Source: Macrotis lagotis
Lineage: Eukaryota > Chordata > Mammalia > Peramelemorphia > Peramelidae
DNA: 64,000 nucleotides
Assembly: GCF_037893015.1 (NCBI RefSeq)
Contig: NC_133658.1
Span: 251,168,518-251,232,517 of the forward strand
Reading direction: 5' to 3'
The notes under the pieces were generated by a model. The model ran no database searches. It worked only from the letters and a program-made list of their open reading frames with translations, and was not told where the DNA came from. Below, in pieces: positions 8,698 to 55,339 of this stretch. The position numbers were made by a program, and so were the translations under genes. How positions within the stretch are numbered: the stretch's first letter is position 1; each line of letters opens with the position of its first letter.

Positions 8698-8874
8698 TTT
8701 TAAAATTAATTAATTTATTGATTTATTCTTATTTTGTACAAATAATTTTTTTATACATTACTAAAATATTCTTGTTTAAGAGTAAACATAATACCTCCTC
8801 CCCCCAAGAAAATATAGACCTGCATAAGCAATAAAGGGGGAGAGAAAAAATAAAATAATAATAATAATAGTAGG

Positions 8875-9027
8875 TATGGCTAGGTGGTGCAGTGGACAGA
8901 CCACCAGTCCTGGAGCCAGGAGCACCCGAGCCCAAATCCAGCCCCAGACACCCAACAATCACCCAGCTGTGTGATCCCATGCAAGCCACCCCAACCCCAT
9001 TGCCCTACAAAAAAACAAAAAAAAAAG
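8875..9027 (+). mobile_element. SINE segment 3 embedded in HAL1-like copy A
   Basis: tRNA-SINE-related: GGCTAGGTGGTGCAGTGGAC, then CACCCAGCTGTGTGATCC. It is antisense to the HAL1-like element and GC-shifted relative to young SINEs. Its counterpart in copy B lies at 38870-39025, so it predates both insertions. Confidence 0.85.
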
Positions 9028-9062
9028 ACTCAAAATAAAATAAAATAGTAAAAATAATAGTA

Positions 9063-9210
9063 GGGGCGGCTGGGTGGCAGACAGATCACTAGCCCTTGAA
9101 CCAGGAGCACCCAGGTCCAAATCTGGCCTCAGACACCCAGCAGTCACCCAGCTGTGTGGCCCCAGGCAGGCTACTCAGTCCCATTTGCCCTGTAACACCC
9201 CCAAGAAAAT
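9063..9210 (+). mobile_element. SINE segment 2 embedded in HAL1-like copy A
   Basis: tRNA-SINE-related head GGGGCGGCTGGGTGGCAGAC and body CAGCTGTGTGGCCCC. Antisense to the host element. Counterpart at 38695-38835 in copy B. Confidence 0.85.
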
Positions 9211-9414
9211 AATAATAATAAAAAATGTGCTTCAGTCTGTGTTCCAATACCACCAGTTCTGTTGCGGGTGGATCACATTTTTTAGGATAAGTCTATCACA
9301 AAAGTTACTTCCATATTTTTCCACCATTGCCATTGCTGATTGCAATTCCCTCCATTCATACTTCTCTATGACCATGATCTATATTTTCTCTCTCCTTTCC
9401 CTCTGTCTCTGCTG

Positions 9415-9562
9415 TAGGATAGTTGAGTGGTGCAGTATACAGATCCCCAGCCCTGGGGCCAAGAGGCCTTGAACTCACATACCACCCTTACCCAGCATCC
9501 ACCCGGCCCTATGGTCCCAAACAGGCTATCTAATCCCAGCCCCTTGCAAGAAAAAAGAAAAT
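9415..9562 (+). mobile_element. SINE segment 1 embedded in HAL1-like copy A
   Basis: Most diverged of the three: GAGTGGTGCAGTATACAGAT, then CCTTGCAAGAAAAAAGAAAA. Its counterpart at 38335-38482 in copy B supports the identification. Confidence 0.75.
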
Positions 9563-10512
9563 GTGTTATATCTGACAACTCTCCCCCCATGGCCCATCAT
9601 CTCCTCCATCACTCACATACCCCCCCTTCCCCCTGTCCCCCTTCTCTCCTTCTTACTACATATGTCTATATCCCATTGAGTATATATGCTGTTTCCTCTC
9701 CTAGCCATCTCTGATGAGGGCAAAGATTCCCTCATTCCCCCTCCCCTTTCCCCCTTCCATATCATTGTAATAAAGAAAAACCTTATTATATGAAATATCT
9801 TAGCCTATTCCCCCTCTCCTTTTTCTTTCTCCCATTACATTTCCCTTTTTTCTATTGACTCCATTTTTACACCATATTTTATTTTCAAATTCAGCTTTCT
9901 CCTGTGCTTCAACTATAAAAGCTCCCTCTACCTGCTCTATTAACTAAGAAGGTTCATATGAGTATTATCAGTGTCATTTTTCTATGCAGGAATACATGAA
10001 GTTCATCATCATTAAGTCCCTCATATTTCCCCCCTCTCCTCCAATCTCCCTGCTTCACCTGAGTCCTGTATCTGAAGATCAAACCTTCTGTTCATCTCTG
10101 GCCATTCCAAAAGGAACATTTGAAACTCCCCTGGTTCATTGAAAGTCCATCTTTTTCCCTGGATGAGGACATTCAGCCTTGCTGGGTAGTTCATTCTTGG
10201 CTGCATTCTAAGCTCTTTTGCCTTCCGGTATATTATATTCCAAGCCCTACGAGCTATTAACGTAGTTGCTGCTAAGTCCTGTGTGATCCTGACTGCAGCT
10301 CCATGATATTTGAATTGTGTCCTTCTGGCTGCTTATAATATTTTCTCTTTGACTTGGGAGTTCTGGAACTTGGCTATAATATTCCTGGGGGGTGTTTTTT
10401 ATGGATCTCTTTCTCAGGGAGATTGGTGGATTCTCTCCATTTCTATTTTGTCCTCTGCTTCTAGGATATCAGGGCAATCTTACTGTAATAATTCTTTGAA
10501 AATGATGTCAAG

Positions 10513-10599
10513 CAGATTGCTTTCCATGGGGGGGGGGAAGTATGATTTGGGGGGAAATTGTAAAACTCAAATAATCTCTTTAATAAAAATAAATTTTAA
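10513..10599 (+). mobile_element. Very short L1 3' tail insertion
   Basis: About 87 bp of L1 3' UTR: a G-rich run, then AAATTGTAAAACTCAAATAA and an A-rich tail. It is flanked by the 14-bp TSD AAAATGATGTCAAG (10499-10512, 10600-10613) and breaks ORF1 of HAL1-like copy A. Confidence 0.88.
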
Positions 10600-10656
10600 A
10601 AAATGATGTCAAGGTTCTTTTCCTGGTCATGACTTTCAGGTATTCCAATAATTTTT

Positions 10657-10820
10657 TTTGTTGTTTGTTTTTTAGGGTTTTTTTGCAAGGCAAATGGGGT
10701 TAAGTGCCTTGCCCAAGGGCACACAGCTAGGTAATTATTAAGTGTCTGAGACTGGATTTGAACCCAGGTACTCCTGACTCCAGGGCCGGTGCTTTATCCA
10801 CTGCACTACCTAGCTGCTCC
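10657..10820 (-). mobile_element. tRNA-derived SINE in HAL1-like copy A
   Basis: Antisense genomic orientation, TSD ATTCCAATAATTTTT at 10642-10656 and 10821-10835. Absent from copy B, so it is a later insertion. Confidence 0.94.
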
Positions 10821-11242
10821 ATTCCAATAATTTTTAAATTATCTTTCCTAAATCTGTTTTCCATATCATTTGTTTTTTCAATGAGATGTTTCACATTTTC
10901 TTGTAATTTTTCATTCTTTTGGTTTTGAAGTACTGAGTCCTGATTTCTCATAAAATCAGCAATCTCCTTGAGTTCTATTCTTTGTCTGAAGGATTTGTTT
11001 TCCTCAGAGAGCTTTCTTAGCTCCTTTTCCATCTGGCCAATTCTGCTTTTTAAAGCATTCTTCTCCTCAATAACTTTTTGAACTGTTTTATCCATTTGAC
11101 CTATGCTGGTTTTTAACATGTTATTTTCTTCAGCATTTTTTTGGATCTTCTTGACTAAGCTGCTGACTTCATTTTCATGTTTTTCCTGCAACTCTCTCAT
11201 TTCTTTTCCCAATTTTTCCTCTATCTCCCTCACTTGATTTTC

Positions 11243-11410
11243 TTCTTTTTTTTTTTTTTGCAAGGCAATGGGGTTAAGTGGTTTGCCCGAGGCCACACAG
11301 CTAGGTAATTATTAAGTGTCTGAGACCAGATTTGAACCCAGGTACTCTTGACTCCAGGGCCGGTGCTTTATCGACTGCGCCACCTAGCTGCCCCCCCTAG
11401 CCGCCCCCCA
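11243..11410 (-). mobile_element. tRNA-derived SINE in HAL1-like copy A
   Basis: TSD ACTTGATTTTC at 11232-11242 and 11411-11421. The 5' head is doubled (CTAGCTGCCCCCC followed by CTAGCCGCCCCCC). Absent from copy B. Confidence 0.92.
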
Positions 11411-12359
11411 ACTTGATTTTCAAAATCTTTTTTGAGCTCTGTCATGGCCTGAGCCCAATTTCTGTTTTTCTTGGAGTCTTTAGATGTGGGAGCTTGTACC
11501 TCCTCATCTTCATATTGAATGTTTTGATCCTTCTTGGGATCACAGGCAAAGTATTTGTCAATGGTGTTCCTCTTTTTTCTCTGCTTACTCATTTTCCCAG
11601 CCTGAGCCTGGTTTGGGGGGGTGCTTCCTTAGCTTTTAGGACACTCCCATAAGGATCTCAGTGTGTGAGGCTCTGTCCTCCCTCCTGGTCTGTGAATGAC
11701 CATAAGTGCCCCCCTCTGCCACGGGACTGAGGTGGGGGGGCCCTGCTGTTCTATGGGGGGGCCTAGACTGCGATCAGGATCTGAATGTGGTCAGAACCCC
11801 AGAGTCCTTGTTCCAGGGGCAGAGGACAGAGCTCCGCAATTTCTCCCTTCACTCGCCTCCCTAGGCTCAATGGGCTAATGCCCTGGGGGCTCCTGCTTAT
11901 TGGCTCCACCTGCTTCTGGTTCCTGGATCTGGTTTTCTGCCACCATGCTGAGTGCTGTGTGCCCTGAGGGCTGGGCTTCACATGCTCGCTTTGGCAGAGG
12001 TTCCCCCCCCCTCCATTCCCTCAAGTTGTGCCTGATGCTCCCCGGGGTGTAAATCAGGAAACTGCCCCAGCTACTGTAAGCGAGGCTCCCAGTGCCCTAG
12101 AGCTGCCTCCAGGAGGCTGAAGTTCTTTCGCTCTGGCGGGCCACCCCTCCGACCCCATGTAGCAGAGCCTTTCTGCTCTTTTCCAAGTTACCTTGGGTTG
12201 GAGAATTGCCTCACTGGATCCCTCTGTGGGTTCTGTCTCTCAAAAATGTAGTTAGAGCCCTTAGTTTATAAGTTTTTCCTCCAGAGAAACTGAGAGAAGG
12301 TCCTCTCCTGTCACCATCTTCGCTCCCCCCCCCCCCAGGAAATGGTTTTTTAAAAAGGT

Positions 12360-35670: not shown

Positions 35671-35880
35671 GATTCCTCCATCTACTTGCTTCCTTCCTCC
35701 CTCCCTTCTTAAGAGACATCTAATTCAAACCTATCATTTTGTTGAAGAAGAAACTAAGCTCCAGAGAGGGGAAGGAATTTACCCCAATGGTCATGAGTTT
35801 GGAGAATCAGGCCTAAAACCCAATCTCTGTTTCATAGAATCCTAGATTTAGATACAAAAAGGATCTTAGAAGTCATCTAG

Positions 35881-36599
35881 AAGATGGCAACATGAAGGGA
35901 TCAAGTCTTAGGAGCTCTCTGATAAAAACTCATAAACTAAGGACTCTAAACTTTCGAGAGACAGAACCCACAAAGGGACTCAGTGAGGCAGTTCTCCTAC
36001 TCAAGGTAACCTGGAAAAGAGCAGAAAGGCTCTGCTCCCCGGGGTCGGAGGGGCGGCCCACCAGAGTGAAAGAAGTTCAGCCTCCCGGAGGCAGTCCCAG
36101 GGTGCTGGGAGCCGTAGCTCACAGCAGCTGGGGAGTCTCCTGAGCTGCACCCTGGGGAGCACTGGGCACAAAGTGGGGGGACAGTGGGTGACCTCTGCCA
36201 GAGCAAGCACGTGGAGCCCAGCCCCCAGGGCACACAACTAGCAGCTTGGTCTTACTGCAGCCCAGACCCAGAAACAGAAGCAGGCCGAGCAGGTAAGCAG
36301 GAGCCCCCAGGGCATGAGCCCATTGAGCTGAGGGAGGCGAGTGGAGAGAGAGAGACTGCCAAGCTGTGTCCTCTGCCTCTGGAACAGGACTCTGGGGCTC
36401 TGACCACATTCAGATCCTGATCCCAGTCTAGGCCCCCCCATAGAACAACAGGGCCCCCCACCTCGGCCCCGTGGCAGAGGGGGGCACCTATGGTCATTCA
36501 CAGACCAGGAGGGAGGACAGAACCTCACACACTGAGAACCTTGTGGGAGTGTCCCAAAAGCTCAGGAAGCACCCCAAAAAACAGGCTTAGGCTGGGAAA
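35881..36599 (+). promoter_or_regulatory. HAL1-like 5' leader, putative internal promoter
   Basis: Starts with AAGATGGC, the YY1-type box found at human L1 5' ends. The leader has CpG-containing patches (CCCCGGGGTCGGAGGGGCGG at 36037-36056). Copy A shows the same leader on the minus strand (12336-11593). Promoter activity is inferred. Confidence 0.55.
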
Positions 36600-37875
36600 A
36601 TGAACAAGCAAAGAAACAAGAGGAAGACCATTGAGAAATATTTTGCAAATGAGCCCCAAGAAGGATCAAAATACTCAGTCTGAAGATGAGGAAGCACAAG
36701 CTCCTGCATCTAAAGACTTCAAGAAAAACAGAAATTGGGCTCAGGCTATGACAGAGCTCAAAAAAGACTGGAAATCAAATGAGGGAGTTAGAAGAAAAAC
36801 TGGGAAAAGAAATGAGAGCGATGCAGGAAAAACATGAAAATGAAGTCAGCAGCTTAGTCAAGGAAATCCAAAAAAATGCTGAAGAAAATAGCATGCTAAA
36901 AAACAGCTTAGGTCAAATGGATAAAACAGTTCAAAAAGTTATTGAGGGGGCAGCTAGGTGGCGCAGTGGATAAAGCACCGGCCTTGGAGTCAGGAGTACC
37001 TGGGTTCAAATCCAGTCTCAGACACTTAATAATTCCCTAGCTGTGTGGCCTTGGGCAAGCCACTTAACCCCGTTTGCCTTGCAAAAACCTAAAAAAAAAA
37101 AAGTTATTGAGGAGAAGAATGCTTTAAAAAGCAAAATTGGCCAGATGGAAAAAGAGATAAGAAAACTGTGGGGAGAACAAATCCTTCAGACAAAGAATAG
37201 AATTCAGGGAGATTGATGAATTTACCAGAAATCAGGAATCAATACTTCAAAAACCAAAAAAATTAAAAATTAAAAGAAAATGTGAAATATCTCATTGAAA
37301 AAACAATTGATATGGAAAACAGACTAAGGAAAGATAATTTGAAAATTATTGGAATACCTGAAAGTCATGATCAGGAAAAGAGCCTTGACATCATTTTCAA
37401 AGAATTACTACAGGAAAATTGCCCTGATAGTCTAGAAGCAGAGGGCAAAATAGAAATGGAGAGAATACACCGATCCCCCTGAGAAAGAGATCCCAAAAAA
37501 CCAACCCCTAGGAATATTATAGCCAAGTTCCAGAACTCCCAAGTCAAAGAGAAAATATTACAAGCAGCCAAAAGGACACAGTTCAAATATCATGGAGCTG
37601 CCTTCAGGATCACTCAGGACTTAGCAGCATCTACATTGGAAGCTCGTAGGGCGTGGAATACAATATACCAGAAGGCAAAAGAGCTTAGAATGCAGCCAAG
37701 AATGAACTACCCAGCAAGGCTAAATGTCCTCTTCCAGGGAAAAAGATGGACTTTCAATGAACCAGGGGAATTTCAAAGGTTCCTTTTGGAATGGCCAGAG
37801 CTGAACAGAAGGTTTGATCTTCAGATACAGGACTCAGGTGAAGCATGGAGATTGGAGGAGAGGGGGGAAATATGA
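36600..37875 (+). pseudogene. HAL1-like ORF1, copy B
   Basis: L1 ORF1p relative. N-terminus MNKQRNKRKTIEKYF at 36600, coiled coil at 36780-37320 (LEEKLGKEMRAMQEKHENEV), RRM from 37321 (RLRKDNLKIIGIPESHD), and C-terminal domain EARRAWNTIYQKAKELRMQP to RLEERGEI, stopping at TGA 37873-37875. About 370 residues without the SINE at 36948-37100, close to human ORF1p (338). Frameshifts lie near 36650, 36780, 37180-37260 and 37480. The adjacent TSD shows the SINE is secondary. Confidence 0.88.
36948..37100 (+). mobile_element. tRNA-derived SINE in HAL1-like copy B
   Basis: TSD AAGTTATTGAGG at 36936-36947 and 37101-37112. Lands in the coiled-coil coding part and is absent from copy A. Confidence 0.95.
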
Positions 37876-38334
37876 GGGACTTAATGAGGATGAACTGCAT
37901 GTATAGAAAAATGATACTGATAATATTCATATGAACCATCTCAGTTAATAGAGCAGGTAGAGGGAGCTTTTATAGTTGAAGCACAGGAGAAAGCTGAATT
38001 CGAAGATAAAATATGGTGCAAAAATGGAGTCAATAGGGAAAAAATGGAAATGGAATGGGAGAAAGAAAAAGGAGAGGGGGAATAGTCCAAGATATTTCAC
38101 ATAAGATTTTTTTTTATTACAATGAGCTATTGCAATGATATGGAAGGGGGGAGGCAAGGGGGAATGAGGGAACCTTTGCTCTCATCAGAGAGGAGAGGAA
38201 ACAGCAAATATACTCAATGGGGTATAGACAACTGGAGTAAGAAGGAGTGGGGAGCAGGGGGAAGGGGTGGGGATGTGAATAAAGGAGGAGAGGATGGACC
38301 ATGGTGGGACAGTGTTCAGATATAACACATTTTC

Positions 38335-38482
38335 TTTTTTACTTCTTGCAAGGGGCTGGGATTGGATGGCCTGCCCAGGACCATGGGGCCAGGTGGATTC
38401 TGGGCCTAAGGGGTGGTATGGGGGCTCAGGGCTTCTTGGCCCCAGGACCAGGGATCTGTCTGCTGCGCCACTCAGCGACCCT
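38335..38482 (-). mobile_element. SINE segment 1 of HAL1-like copy B
   Basis: Antisense to the element: CTTGCAAGGGGCTGGGATTG, then CTGCTGCGCCACTCAGCGAC. Counterpart 9415-9562. Confidence 0.78.
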
Positions 38483-38694
38483 ACAGCAGAGTCAGAGTGA
38501 AAGGAGAGAGAAAATATAGTACATGGTAGTGGAGAAATAAGAAAGGAGGGAGTTGCGATCAGCAATGGCAATGGTGGAAAATATGGAAGTAACTTTTGTG
38601 ATGGACTTATCATAAAGAATGTGATCCACCCACGACAGAGTTGATGGTGTTGGAACAAAGACTGAAGCACATTTTTTTGTTATTATTATTTGGG

Positions 38695-38835
38695 GGAGGG
38701 TGCAGGGCAAGTGGGGCTAGGTGGCCTGCCTGGGGCCACATAGCAGGGTGATCTTTGGGTATCTGGGGCCAGATTCGGATCCAGATGCTCCTGGCTCAAG
38801 GGCCAATGCTCTGTCTGCCACCCAGCCACCTCTAC
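38695..38835 (-). mobile_element. SINE segment 2 of HAL1-like copy B
   Basis: Antisense: GCAAGTGGGGCTAGGTGGCC, then CTCTGTCTGCCACCCAGCCA. Counterpart 9063-9210. Confidence 0.85.
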
Positions 38836-38869
38836 TATTATTACTATTTTATTTTATTTTGGGTCTTTT

Positions 38870-39025
38870 TTTTTCTTCTTTTTGGTTTTTTCAGGGCAGT
38901 GGGGATGGGGTGGCTTGCATGTCACATGGCTGGGTGATTATTAGGTTTATGAGGCTGGATATGGACTCGGGTGCTCATGACTCCAGGGCTGTTGCTTTGT
39001 CCATTGCGCCACCTGGCCATACCTA
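38870..39025 (-). mobile_element. SINE segment 3 of HAL1-like copy B
   Basis: Antisense with retained T-rich tail, TGGCTGGGTGATTATTAGG, and head TCCATTGCGCCACCTGGCC. Counterpart 8875-9027. Confidence 0.87.
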
Positions 39026-39250
39026 CAATTATTACTATTATTTTTTTTATTTTAATTTTTTTCTCTCCCCTTTACTTTTTCGCCCAAGCAAGTCTATCTA
39101 TATTCATGGGGGAGGGGTATTTTGTTTACTTGTAAACAAGTATATTTTATTAATGTAAAAAAAATTTGTACAAAATGAGAATAAAAAATAAATTTAAATA
39201 AATAAATAGATAGATAGATAAATGAATAAATAAAAAAAGAAGTCATCTAG

Positions 39251-41339: not shown

Positions 41340-42932
41340 ATCAGCTTAGCCTTAACAGATCTAAAATTATATTATAAAGCATCAGTCATCAAAACTATCT
41401 GGTACTGGCTAAGAAACAGAGTTGTGGATCAGTGGAATAGACTACGTGCAATAGCAGGAAATGATTATAGTAATCTGCTGTTTGATAAACCCAGAGAGTC
41501 CAGCTATTGGGATAAAAATTCTCTCTTTGATAAAAACTGTTGGGAAAATTGAAAGTTAGTATGGAAGAAACCTGGATTAGACCAACACCTCACACCCTAT
41601 ACCAAGATAAGATCCAAATGGTTACAGGATTTAGATATAAAAAAATATTATAAGCAAACTAGAAGATCAAGGAGTAGTTTGCCTGTCAAATCTATGGAAA
41701 GGGAAGCAGTTTATGACCAAGGAAGAGATGGAGAACATCATTAAAAACAAACTAGATAATTTTGATTACATTAAATTAAAAAGCTTTTGCACAGACAAAA
41801 CCACTGTAACCAAGATCAAAAGAGATGTAGTAAATTGGGAAACAATTTTTACAACTAGTATTTCTGACAAAGGACTCATTTCTAAAATATACAGAGAACT
41901 GAGTCAAATTTTCAAAAAAAAAACAGCATTCCCCAATTGACAAATGGTCAAAGGATATGCAAAGGTAATTTACAGATGAGGAAGTCAAAGCTATCCATAG
42001 TCATATGAAAAATTGCTCTAAATCACTACTTATTAGAGAAATGCAAATTACAGCATCTCTGAGGTACCACCTCACACCTCTCAGACTGGCCAATATGATC
42101 AGAAAGAACAATGATTAATGTTGGAAGGGATGTGGGAAATCTGGGATACTAATGCATTTTTGGTGGAGCTGTGAACTCATTCAACCTTTCTGGAGAGAAA
42201 TTTGGAATTGTGCCCAAAGGGCAACAAAAATGAACATAACCTTTGACCCAGCAATACCACTACTGGGTCTATACCCTGAAGAGATTATGAAAAAGGATAA
42301 AAACATCACTTGTACAAAAATATTCATAGCAGCCCTGTTTGTGGTGGCAAAGAATTGGAAATTGAATGTCTTTCTACTGGGGAATGGCTTAGCAAACTGT
42401 GGTATTTGTATGTCATGGAACACTATTGTTTTATTAGAAACCAGAAGAGATGGGGATTCAGGGAAATCTGGAAGGATTTGCATAAACTGATGCTGAGTGA
42501 GATGAGCAGAACCAGAATAACATTGTATATCCTAACAGCAACATGGGGGTGATGATCAACCTTGATGAACTTGCTCATTCCATCAGTGCAGCAATAAGGG
42601 ACAATTTTGGGCTATCTTCAATGGAGAATACCATCTGTATCCAGACAAAGAATTGTGGAGTTTGAAAAAAGACCAAAGACTATTACTTTCAATTTAGAGG
42701 AAAACATTTTCTTATTATGTAATTTTTCTATCTCTTATACTTTATTTTTCTTTCTTAAGGATATGATTTCTCTATTATCACATTCAACTTAGATCAATGT
42801 ATACCATGGAAACAATGTAAAGACTAACAGACTACCTTCTGTGGGGATGGGGGGAGGGAAGCAAGAATAGGGGAAAAATTATGAAACTCAAAATAAATAA
42901 AATCTTTCTTTAAAAAGCAAAACAAAAACAAA
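41340..42932 (+). mobile_element. 5'-truncated L1 with ORF2 C-terminal third
   Basis: Longest L1 here. The remnant ORF2 frames match the mammalian L1 ORF2 C-terminus in order: [20 protein letters not shown] (about 41350), DYIKLKSFCTDKTT (41770), SDKGLISKIYREL (41865), FDPAIPLLGLYP (42243) and CTKIFIAALF (42310). Upstream endonuclease and RT domains are absent. A G-rich 3' UTR and A-tail end at about 42932. TSD AACAAAGAGG with partial extension at 41328-41345 and 42933-42950. Several frameshifts make it inactive. Confidence 0.95.
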
Positions 42933-54660: not shown

Positions 54661-54854
54661 TATTAACATTATCTATTTTGTATTGTACTTTTCTTTATTT
54701 TATTAAAACATTTCCCAGTTACATTTTTATCTATTTTGAGTAGGGCTTCAAATTTAACACCTCTATCTTAGAACATGAAATATAAACTATGGGAGAGAAC
54801 TCAGAACATAGAATATCATCAATGGGAGGTACCTCAGAATATGTAATTTTTTTT

Positions 54855-55070
54855 AGTAGCTGCTCACTCACAAAGTGATTTGAATTTAGGGTTGGGAGAC
54901 CCATATAGAAAGACAATCATGGGAGAGCCATTCCTATCATCAGTGGAAATAATATTGAAATCAGGGCTTAAATCCAAATTCTCTCATTGATACTTTCTGA
55001 CTTTAGACAAAGTTATTTCTCCCCATGGACCTCAGTTTCCTCATGGATAAAATGTTAATTAAAAATCCCT
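54855..55070. repeat. Unclassified repeat, copy 2
   Basis: Direct-orientation partner of 53686-53880. It is preceded by an L1-tail-like fragment (54675-54735), as copy 1 is, so the pair may be an old tandem duplication. Confidence 0.65.
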
Positions 55071-55077
55071 GCCCTAC

Positions 55078-55242
55078 ATAGAATGTCAGTGATGGGAGGG
55101 ACCTCAGAACATAGAATGTCAAAGCTGAGAGGGACCCGAAAACATTCAATGTCAATGATGGAAAGGACCTCAGAACATGTAAAGTCAGTTGTGGAAGGGA
55201 CCTTAGAACATGTAATGTCAGCAAGGGGAGGGACCTCAGAAC
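55078..55242. repeat. 33-bp minisatellite, five units
   Basis: Units of the form 'atgtaatgtcag...ggagggacctcagaac'. The minus strand shows an 11-residue periodic frame (LTLHVLRSLPQ, LTLHVLRSFPS). The same motif is scattered at 2.9, 3.8 and 48.2 kb. Confidence 0.9.
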
Positions 55243-55339
55243 ATGTTAGAGTAAGGAAGTAGATTTGAACTCATGTTTTCTTTACACCAGGTCCAGCACT
55301 CTTTTTGTGGTGCCATCTAGCACATACCTTGAACTGGGC

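Follow-up and report, generated by a model that had tools for sequence, protein, structure and literature searches.

This study concerns a 64,000-nt stretch of the genome of Macrotis lagotis (contig NC_133658.1 of assembly GCF_037893015.1), referred to throughout as the window, and within it a repetitive element at 35881-39237 of the plus strand. The element is a full-length derivative of the retrotransposon L1 that carries only open reading frame 1 (ORF1), is flanked by a 13-bp target duplication, and contains three antisense segments (A, B, and C) of a tRNA-like short interspersed element (SINE). A second copy of the same element (copy 2) lies on the opposite strand of the window. On the features described below, the element can be assigned to the HAL1 (half-L1) type of non-autonomous L1 derivatives, with a composite 3' tail that is inherited as part of the element and whose SINE segments bear a strand-specific scar of A-to-G changes. 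The window copy at 35881-39237 (copy 1) is composed as follows.

35868..35880, no strand: target-site duplication, 5' copy (AGAAGTCATCTAG); the 3' copy starts at about 39238
35881..36599, plus strand: 5' untranslated region (UTR) of about 720 nt, starting with AAGATGGC; its aligned part is 76-96% identical in 20 loci (L009-L028)
36600..37875, plus strand: ORF1 zone (L1 ORF1p), disrupted in the window copy by an inserted SINE, by frameshifts, and by the TGA codon at 37480-37482
36946..37104, plus strand: later private sense SINE inside ORF1, 97% identical to the SINE consensus, missing from copy 2, with AAAGTTATTGAGG as its flanks
37876..38334, plus strand: purine-rich non-coding stretch from ORF1 to the SINE array, at the place expected for ORF2, with no Pfam or ORF2 match in the searches described below
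38335..38485, minus strand: antisense SINE segment A, with a T-rich A-tail remnant on its left, from alignment to the SINE consensus
38486..38689, plus strand: unique spacer ("mid"), containing a 30-mer with 6009 exact copies in the genome and the CATAAA that is the premature end point of two loci
38690..38836, minus strand: antisense SINE segment B, from alignment to the SINE consensus
38837..38875, plus strand: T-rich spacer from B to C, from sequence reading and array alignment
38876..39026, minus strand: antisense SINE segment C, from alignment to the SINE consensus
39027..39237, plus strand: 3' end of the element and A-rich tail, matched by neither of two ORF2-bearing L1s in their 3' parts

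Both ends of the insertion, proposed together with the 13-bp duplication in an earlier note made from the letters of this DNA alone, are borne out by the presence of AGAAGTCATCTAG on either side, the first A of the 3' copy being one that could belong to the tail instead of the duplication; the AAGATGGC at the element start is presumably a YY1-like word. The three antisense tRNA-like segments with T-rich remnants, likewise anticipated in that note, were located at about the positions listed and are 61-76% identical to the window SINE consensus in copy 1 and 58-74% identical in copy 2. A similar T-rich stretch (TACTATTATTA...) follows both B and C (38690-39060), as would be left by nested insertions in one target or by tandem duplication. 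Inside the element, neither tRNA genes nor Rfam families were detected, and the bacterial and viral collections contained no exact pattern match. Segments B and C plus their T-rich spacers are alike over 196 nt at 70%, and the three segments may not be independent, in that B or C could have arisen as a duplicate of the other once the base changes discussed below were in place.

Inheritance of the SINE-loaded tail was surveyed across 3,655,600,598 bases in 607 contigs by means of two samples: a young sample comprising the 40 top-ranked matches of an ORF1 piece (the window and 39 other loci at 97-98% identity, all 39 fetched), and an old sample obtained with the array of copy 2 as query, which gave 39 other matches at 88-90%, 20 of them fetched. 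In the numbering of loci, L001 is the window, L002-L008 are the same places as L009-L015 and were not counted, and L024 is the same place as L029; the rearranged L060 was left out of the old-array alignment, and L024, L029, L032, and L041, in which part of the array is missing, were left out of the young-array alignment. Segment A, the spacer, B, and C stand in this order in 36 of the 39 loci chosen by ORF1, and the 3' part of ORF1 lies directly upstream of the array in 19 of the 20 older loci, which had been chosen by array similarity. Because the layout matches in both samples, the SINE-loaded tail is an inherited part of the element, as the earlier note had supposed; the two outcomes named there as telling against it, a normal ORF2 in other copies or SINE segments private to two loci, were looked for, and neither was encountered in the loci surveyed. 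Among the exceptions, one locus (L024/L029) stops just after ORF1, and two, L032 (C8:178282800-178286700) and L041 (C3:211135300-211139300), end at the same spacer position, holding segment A only and an A-tail that lies about 15-20 nt past CATAAA; these two are apparently short forms retrotransposed after premature polyadenylation.

The comparison of the two window copies leads to the same result. They are 88% identical over 3053 aligned sites (Kimura two-parameter distance 0.13), and at bases that differ from the SINE consensus they are alike 42, 25, and 22 times in A, B, and C, as against 4, 2, and 1 positions at which they differ from it differently, so that the segments must have been inherited with these derived bases. 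Segmental duplication is ruled out as the origin of the two copies by their different flanks. A dead L1 struck by SINEs in two unrelated late events could be imagined from the density of SINEs in the window and from the three later ones that landed in the two ORF1 zones, but the identical positions and common derived bases of copy 2, together with the array in 36 of 39 other loci, refute such chance landing at a single locus and leave it a probability close to nil. Copy 2 is without a clear target duplication (its best shared word is TTTTAAAAAA), and its features are given below.

8712..12320 (about), minus strand: copy 2, same element, older subfamily, same part order, different flanks
9413-9560, 9062-9209, and 8868-9022, within the minus-strand copy: SINE segments A, B, and C of copy 2, from array alignment
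11242..11411, minus strand: private SINE in copy 2, sense to its ORF1, from sequence comparison
10664..10835, minus strand: second private SINE in copy 2, sense to its ORF1, from sequence comparison
10513..10600, plus strand: private truncated L1 3' end (88 nt), lying antisense in copy 2 with CTTGACATCATTTT on both sides

All three later SINEs in the ORF1 zones (36946-37104, 11242-11411, and 10664-10835) are sense to ORF1, an orientation expected from L1 endonuclease sites in the A-rich strand; the RNAs of such copies would hold both sense and antisense SINEs.

From the 6009 exact occurrences of the spacer 30-mer and its presence in 23 of the 37 sampled young arrays, about 9,700 young copies are estimated, provided that every match lies in the element; this figure is likely to be a minimum, since the sample favors close relatives. 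The family as a whole is put at roughly 10,000 copies. Young arrays are 93.1-98.6% identical to their own majority sequence and old arrays 93.1-96.0% to theirs, the two majorities being 90.7% identical to each other. The family is large and fairly young, with at least two subfamilies of different age. At 24 of the 47 testable loci the two flanks have a word of 12 nt or more in common, compared with 0 of 188 mismatched flank pairs; for words of 9 nt or more, the numbers are 34 of 47 and 13 of 188.

The ORF1 of the window copy matches solved LINE-1 ORF1p structures with an E value of 3e-17 and contains the L1 dsRBD-like domain above the Pfam cut-off. Of the coiled coil, RNA recognition motif, and C-terminal domain claimed for it in the earlier note, the identification as an L1 ORF1 holds; the L1 RNA-binding domain is split into two halves on either side of a stop codon, each just below the cut-off, and the coiled coil is represented by coiled-coil-type Pfam matches that are all below it. 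In addition, this reading frame is dead, a point beyond the earlier note, being interrupted by the later sense SINE (36946-37104), by frameshifts, and by an in-frame TGA at 37480. The stop is ruled out as a family trait, since the codon at 37480-37482 is CGA or AGA in 24 of the 39 young loci (CGA 12, AGA 12, TGA 15); in 19 old loci it reads TGA 7, CAA 4, CGA 3, AGA 1, and TAA 1 times, with three unreadable. It is probably a hot spot of CpG decay that makes a stop within the RNA-binding domain.

Elsewhere in the family ORF1 has stayed open, with ATG-initiated frames of at least 350 aa in 5 of 59 loci, three of which are complete at 370 aa, and the protein of the intact copy L009 exceeds the Pfam cut-offs for both L1 ORF1 domains, RNA-binding and dsRBD-like. 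The ratio of nonsynonymous to synonymous divergence (dN/dS) is 0.20 between the ORF1 of the element and that of the ORF2-bearing L1 at L070, a pair for which dS approaches saturation, and 0.48 when two intact copies are compared; the subfamily majorities differ by 18 synonymous and 26 nonsynonymous codons out of 256. Because intact frames exist and dN/dS lies below 1, ORF1 appears to have been under purifying selection, at least loosely, in the source copies.

No ORF2 was found in the element, in agreement with the earlier note: downstream of ORF1, no Pfam match appeared in the 11 scanned of 23 stop-to-stop pieces of at least 40 aa (10 of 12 sense, 1 of 11 antisense), and across the 59 loci a tblastn search with an 82-aa C-terminal piece of ORF2 as sole query gave no match inside the element, its matches at four places (L021, L024/L029, L052, and L068) all lying outside. 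The method detects ORF2 when it is present, as a fragment elsewhere in the window (42155-42400) was found and matches LINE-1 ORF2 protein structures at 4e-19. Two fetched ORF2-bearing L1s are ruled out as the parent, their ORF1 having 65-71% nucleotide identity over part of its length and no other part of the element being matched. With an L1-type ORF1, no ORF2 detected, the insertion hallmarks of L1, and a multi-copy family with common ends, the element would be a HAL1-type non-autonomous L1 derivative with a composite tail, an assignment made by described features; the half-L1 character proposed in the earlier note is thus supported by both the survey and the ORF1 domains.

A second characteristic of the array, new here, is a strong excess of A-to-G (A>G) changes, measured against the consensus of 18 young window SINEs and read on the RNA strand of the element. 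In the six segments of the window copies, A>G affects 18/31 (A1), 17/31 (A2), 15/30 (B1), 15/30 (B2), 14/30 (C1), and 18/31 (C2), and T>C 2-8 of about 40 per segment. Changes common to both subfamily majorities, which were used to remove later noise, comprise A>G at 45/91, T>C at 13/103, G>A at 8/112, and C>T at 13/112 (p 2e-8), and the 17 oldest stand-alone SINEs of the window, read on the same strand, serve as a control in which the two classes are symmetric (A>G 29/398, T>C 31/409; five of the six segments entered this pooled comparison, A2 having been missed by BLAST). The excess holds against a consensus of old SINEs, is unchanged under three other alignment scorings, and persists when sites differing between the young and old SINE consensus are removed (A>G 38/82 vs. 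T>C 11/97); A>C and A>T together are rare, numbering 9 in the six segments.

The shared A>G changes amount to 17/31 in A, 14/30 in B, and 14/30 in C, where other shared changes number 32, 11, and 9, respectively; an equal share of A>G despite roughly three times as many other changes in A as in B or C indicates saturation rather than a clock. Segment C is the cleanest, with A>G at 14/30 and T>C at 1/35. Where a site can be read in each of the three segments, A, B, and C have A>G in common at 9 of 14 changed A sites, compared with 1 of 29 for other changes, and on the branches after the subfamily split 10 A>G and 5 T>C changes were counted.

Ancient editing of adenosine to inosine (A-to-I) by an ADAR-type enzyme appears to be the best single cause of this scar, with a chance that we would put at about even. 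Editing is favored because the changes lie on the RNA strand of the element, sense SINE partners exist, A>G is the only class raised, and its share fits ADAR, for which a passage of PMC11019741 reports 40-50% conversion on long duplexes; a strand-specific A>G excess in segments with a sense partner is what ADAR would be expected to leave. The fuller course of events, in which the tail once formed a duplex with SINE RNA, ADAR hyper-edited it, and the edits were returned to germ-line DNA and fixed in about 10,000 copies, is somewhat less probable, falling a little short of even. The earlier note had raised pairing with sense SINE RNA and editing as a possibility for the transcripts; as an ancient event this gains partial support from the strand-specific excess, and as a current process it gains none, there being no recent excess. 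A private excess in young SINE segments (A>G 101/2428 vs. T>C 25/3264) that suggested continuing editing proved to be mostly subfamily polymorphism and vanished once sites were restricted.

Several observations weigh against the account preferred here, in its parts or as a whole. Restricted to sites alike in both subfamilies, singletons of young copies show A>G at 6 of 48 sites and T>C at 11 of 80, and the lack of an A>G excess among them speaks against continuing editing. The sequence context is not that of ADAR, which according to passages of PMC11019741 and PMC3091650 disfavors A's after a 5' G: grouped by 5' neighbor, changed A's make up 17/19 after T, 13/18 after A, 10/14 after G, and only 5/25 after C (few sites in each), so that A's after G are not avoided relative to those after T or A (30/37; p 0.47) and the ADAR order U > A > C > G is not followed. 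CpG decay could be the reason for the low change after C; CA to TG was seen at 8/60. Outside the SINEs, the window copies differ in the spacer 38486-38689 by A<->G 13 times and by C<->T once (unpolarised), exceeding the expectation from composition (p 0.018), and the scar, for which the rest of the element offers no outgroup, need not be confined to the SINE segments; subfamily-fixed differences outside the SINEs (A<->G/C<->T) are 7/9 in the 5' UTR, 9/4 after ORF1, 4/1 in the spacer, and 2/3 at the 3' end. Furthermore, the SINE segments differ between subfamilies at 45/418 sites, compared with 31/744 in ORF1, 28/626 in the 5' UTR, and 12/182 in the spacer, the last three counted by a stricter 70% majority rule, and this faster change gives no sign of sequence constraint. 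More generally, both samples consist of the most similar copies by rank and not of random ones, and an ORF2-bearing parent L1 was not found among the loci examined. Some loci, finally, bear on the possibility that the segments stem from a separate SINE lineage with C in its own consensus in place of the T of the common SINE, in which case editing would be absent: the changed-type 29-mer occurs exactly 1061 times, most of 93 checked loci could not be placed in the element, an exact old-type spacer word lies near 10 of these 93, and in the first 81.7 Mb an old- or young-type spacer word lies near 7 of 17 motif loci (5 of 10 for known old arrays with the motif).

Such a separate lineage would also account for the nine A>G sites common to A, B, and C, yet it should share every kind of change, and 24 of the 29 other changed sites are found in one segment only. 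In addition, the 45 other SINE matches of the window are all unlike the array type, the highest share of the matching change (T>C on the SINE strand) being 14% as against 47-58% in the six array segments; paired places make up 14 of the 100 places listed, which fits the 2 of 11 for known old arrays; and a SINE lineage changed by T>C alone would need an explanation of its own. Disfavored by the window SINEs and by the pattern of sharing, this lineage is an unlikely source of the scar. Less likely still, and in our estimation quite doubtful, is an origin in ordinary transcription-coupled mutation or in selection on the 3' region, whether for a purine-rich tail or for G-U pairing with SINE RNA. 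In its favor, the remaining 3' region is purine-rich, the spacer has the A<->G preponderance just described, and A>G keeps G-U pairs, with a computed loss of duplex energy of about 5-11 kcal/mol compared with 20-60 for an equal number of T>C changes. Selection to keep pairing should raise C>T as well, which at 13/112 is hardly above G>A at 8/112, and is therefore not supported as the cause; A>C and A>T, moreover, are as rare as noted above, the fixed differences in the non-SINE parts, few and unpolarised, cannot reveal a bias, and the known strand bias linked to transcription is far smaller than the A>G excess of the array. Sixteen places that combine an unchanged SINE head with the TAC-ATTA anchor pattern of the element are candidates for less-changed arrays.

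A further question is the role, if any, of the array itself. It might act as a docking domain, its antisense SINEs pairing with ribosome-held SINE RNA and thereby gaining access to L1 ORF2p, as the Alu-like domain of SVA has been proposed to do; passages of PMC4859970 present docking of the antisense Alu domain of SVA on Alu RNA as a prediction and also doubt that such pairing is required. The retention of the segments in both sampled subfamilies and their strong computed pairing with the sense SINE (-151 to -261 kcal/mol, compared with -313 for a perfect antisense) are consistent with docking. Against it, the segments change faster and not slower than the rest, 2 of the 39 loci, apparently polyadenylated too early, retrotransposed while lacking B and C, and the element encodes an ORF1p of its own, which together make a docking function improbable.

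Elsewhere in the window, a repeat family (D11) at 54773-55249 is made up of five copies that are 68-73% alike to a reference copy; four have a spacing of 33 nt, and the whole resembles a short tandem array.

Altogether, it is very probable that the element represents a non-autonomous L1 family of HAL1 type whose 3' region is composite and whose history, including an early A>G scar, was as follows. An L1 lineage would have lost ORF2 and kept its 5' UTR and ORF1, and its 3' non-coding region would have gained three SINEs, all antisense, beside T-rich sequence. This loaded form then presumably became the source of an estimated ten thousand copies in at least two subfamilies, inserted by L1-type target-primed reverse transcription, to which the target duplications and A-rich tails point, with L1 ORF2p probably supplied in trans. 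The sources kept ORF1 coding for a predicted protein, as the 370-aa frames and a dN/dS below 1 indicate, and the RNA of the element would thus join a coding half to a tail that is the complement of SINE RNA. Early on, and mostly before the split into subfamilies, about half of all A's in the array segments became G on the RNA-sense strand, as measured against the SINE consensus, with an evenly balanced chance that this happened through A-to-I editing of antisense SINE RNA in duplex with its sense counterpart, followed by reverse transcription into DNA. Later copies are without a continuing A>G excess, so that the array would now be chiefly a passenger that is passed on with the element and may have a role in pairing.

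Searches of an open-licence library brought up no paper on a half-L1 that inherits a SINE array or on a comparable A>G scar; a Repbase or Dfam entry for the family may well exist. The element joins two things known apart, namely ORF1-only L1 elements and composite elements with antisense SINEs, and as a large family with intact ORF1 frames and subfamilies of different age it offers many natural replicates. If the scar is due to editing, the genomic copies would record the order of changes, the transfer of RNA edits into germ-line DNA would become directly testable, and the array would constitute a heritable fossil of RNA editing within a mobile element. Moreover, it provides an independent case for the open question of whether antisense SINE domains make it easier for composite elements to gain access to L1 proteins.

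Among known systems, HAL1s are described in a passage of PMC5753468 as non-autonomous L1 derivatives that encode ORF1p only and have several origins in mammals; the present element resembles them in keeping an L1 ORF1 with no ORF2 found, and differs in its inherited SINE tail, which the HAL1 description in that passage does not mention. With ADAR hyper-editing the array has in common that A>G lies on one strand and affects about half of the A's in its segments, whereas its changes, read from DNA alone, are fixed in the DNA of a repeat family, do not avoid a 5' G, and are absent from recent copies. DNA editing of retroelements by APOBEC-type enzymes also produces strand-specific clusters of one transition type, its signature being G>A on the plus strand according to the cited part of PMC2873906, but G>A is among the lowest classes in the array. 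SVA and LAVA elements, mobilized by L1 proteins and holding two partial antisense Alu copies in their body (as stated in a passage of PMC7353768), are non-coding, contain hexamer repeats and a variable number of tandem repeats, and have their Alu part towards the 5' side; the present element keeps ORF1, shows neither repeat type on reading of its sequence, and carries a tRNA-like SINE, threefold, in its 3' tail. In having antisense fragments of the resident SINE as a part of the element the two are alike, and SVA is the nearest known parallel to the composite tail.

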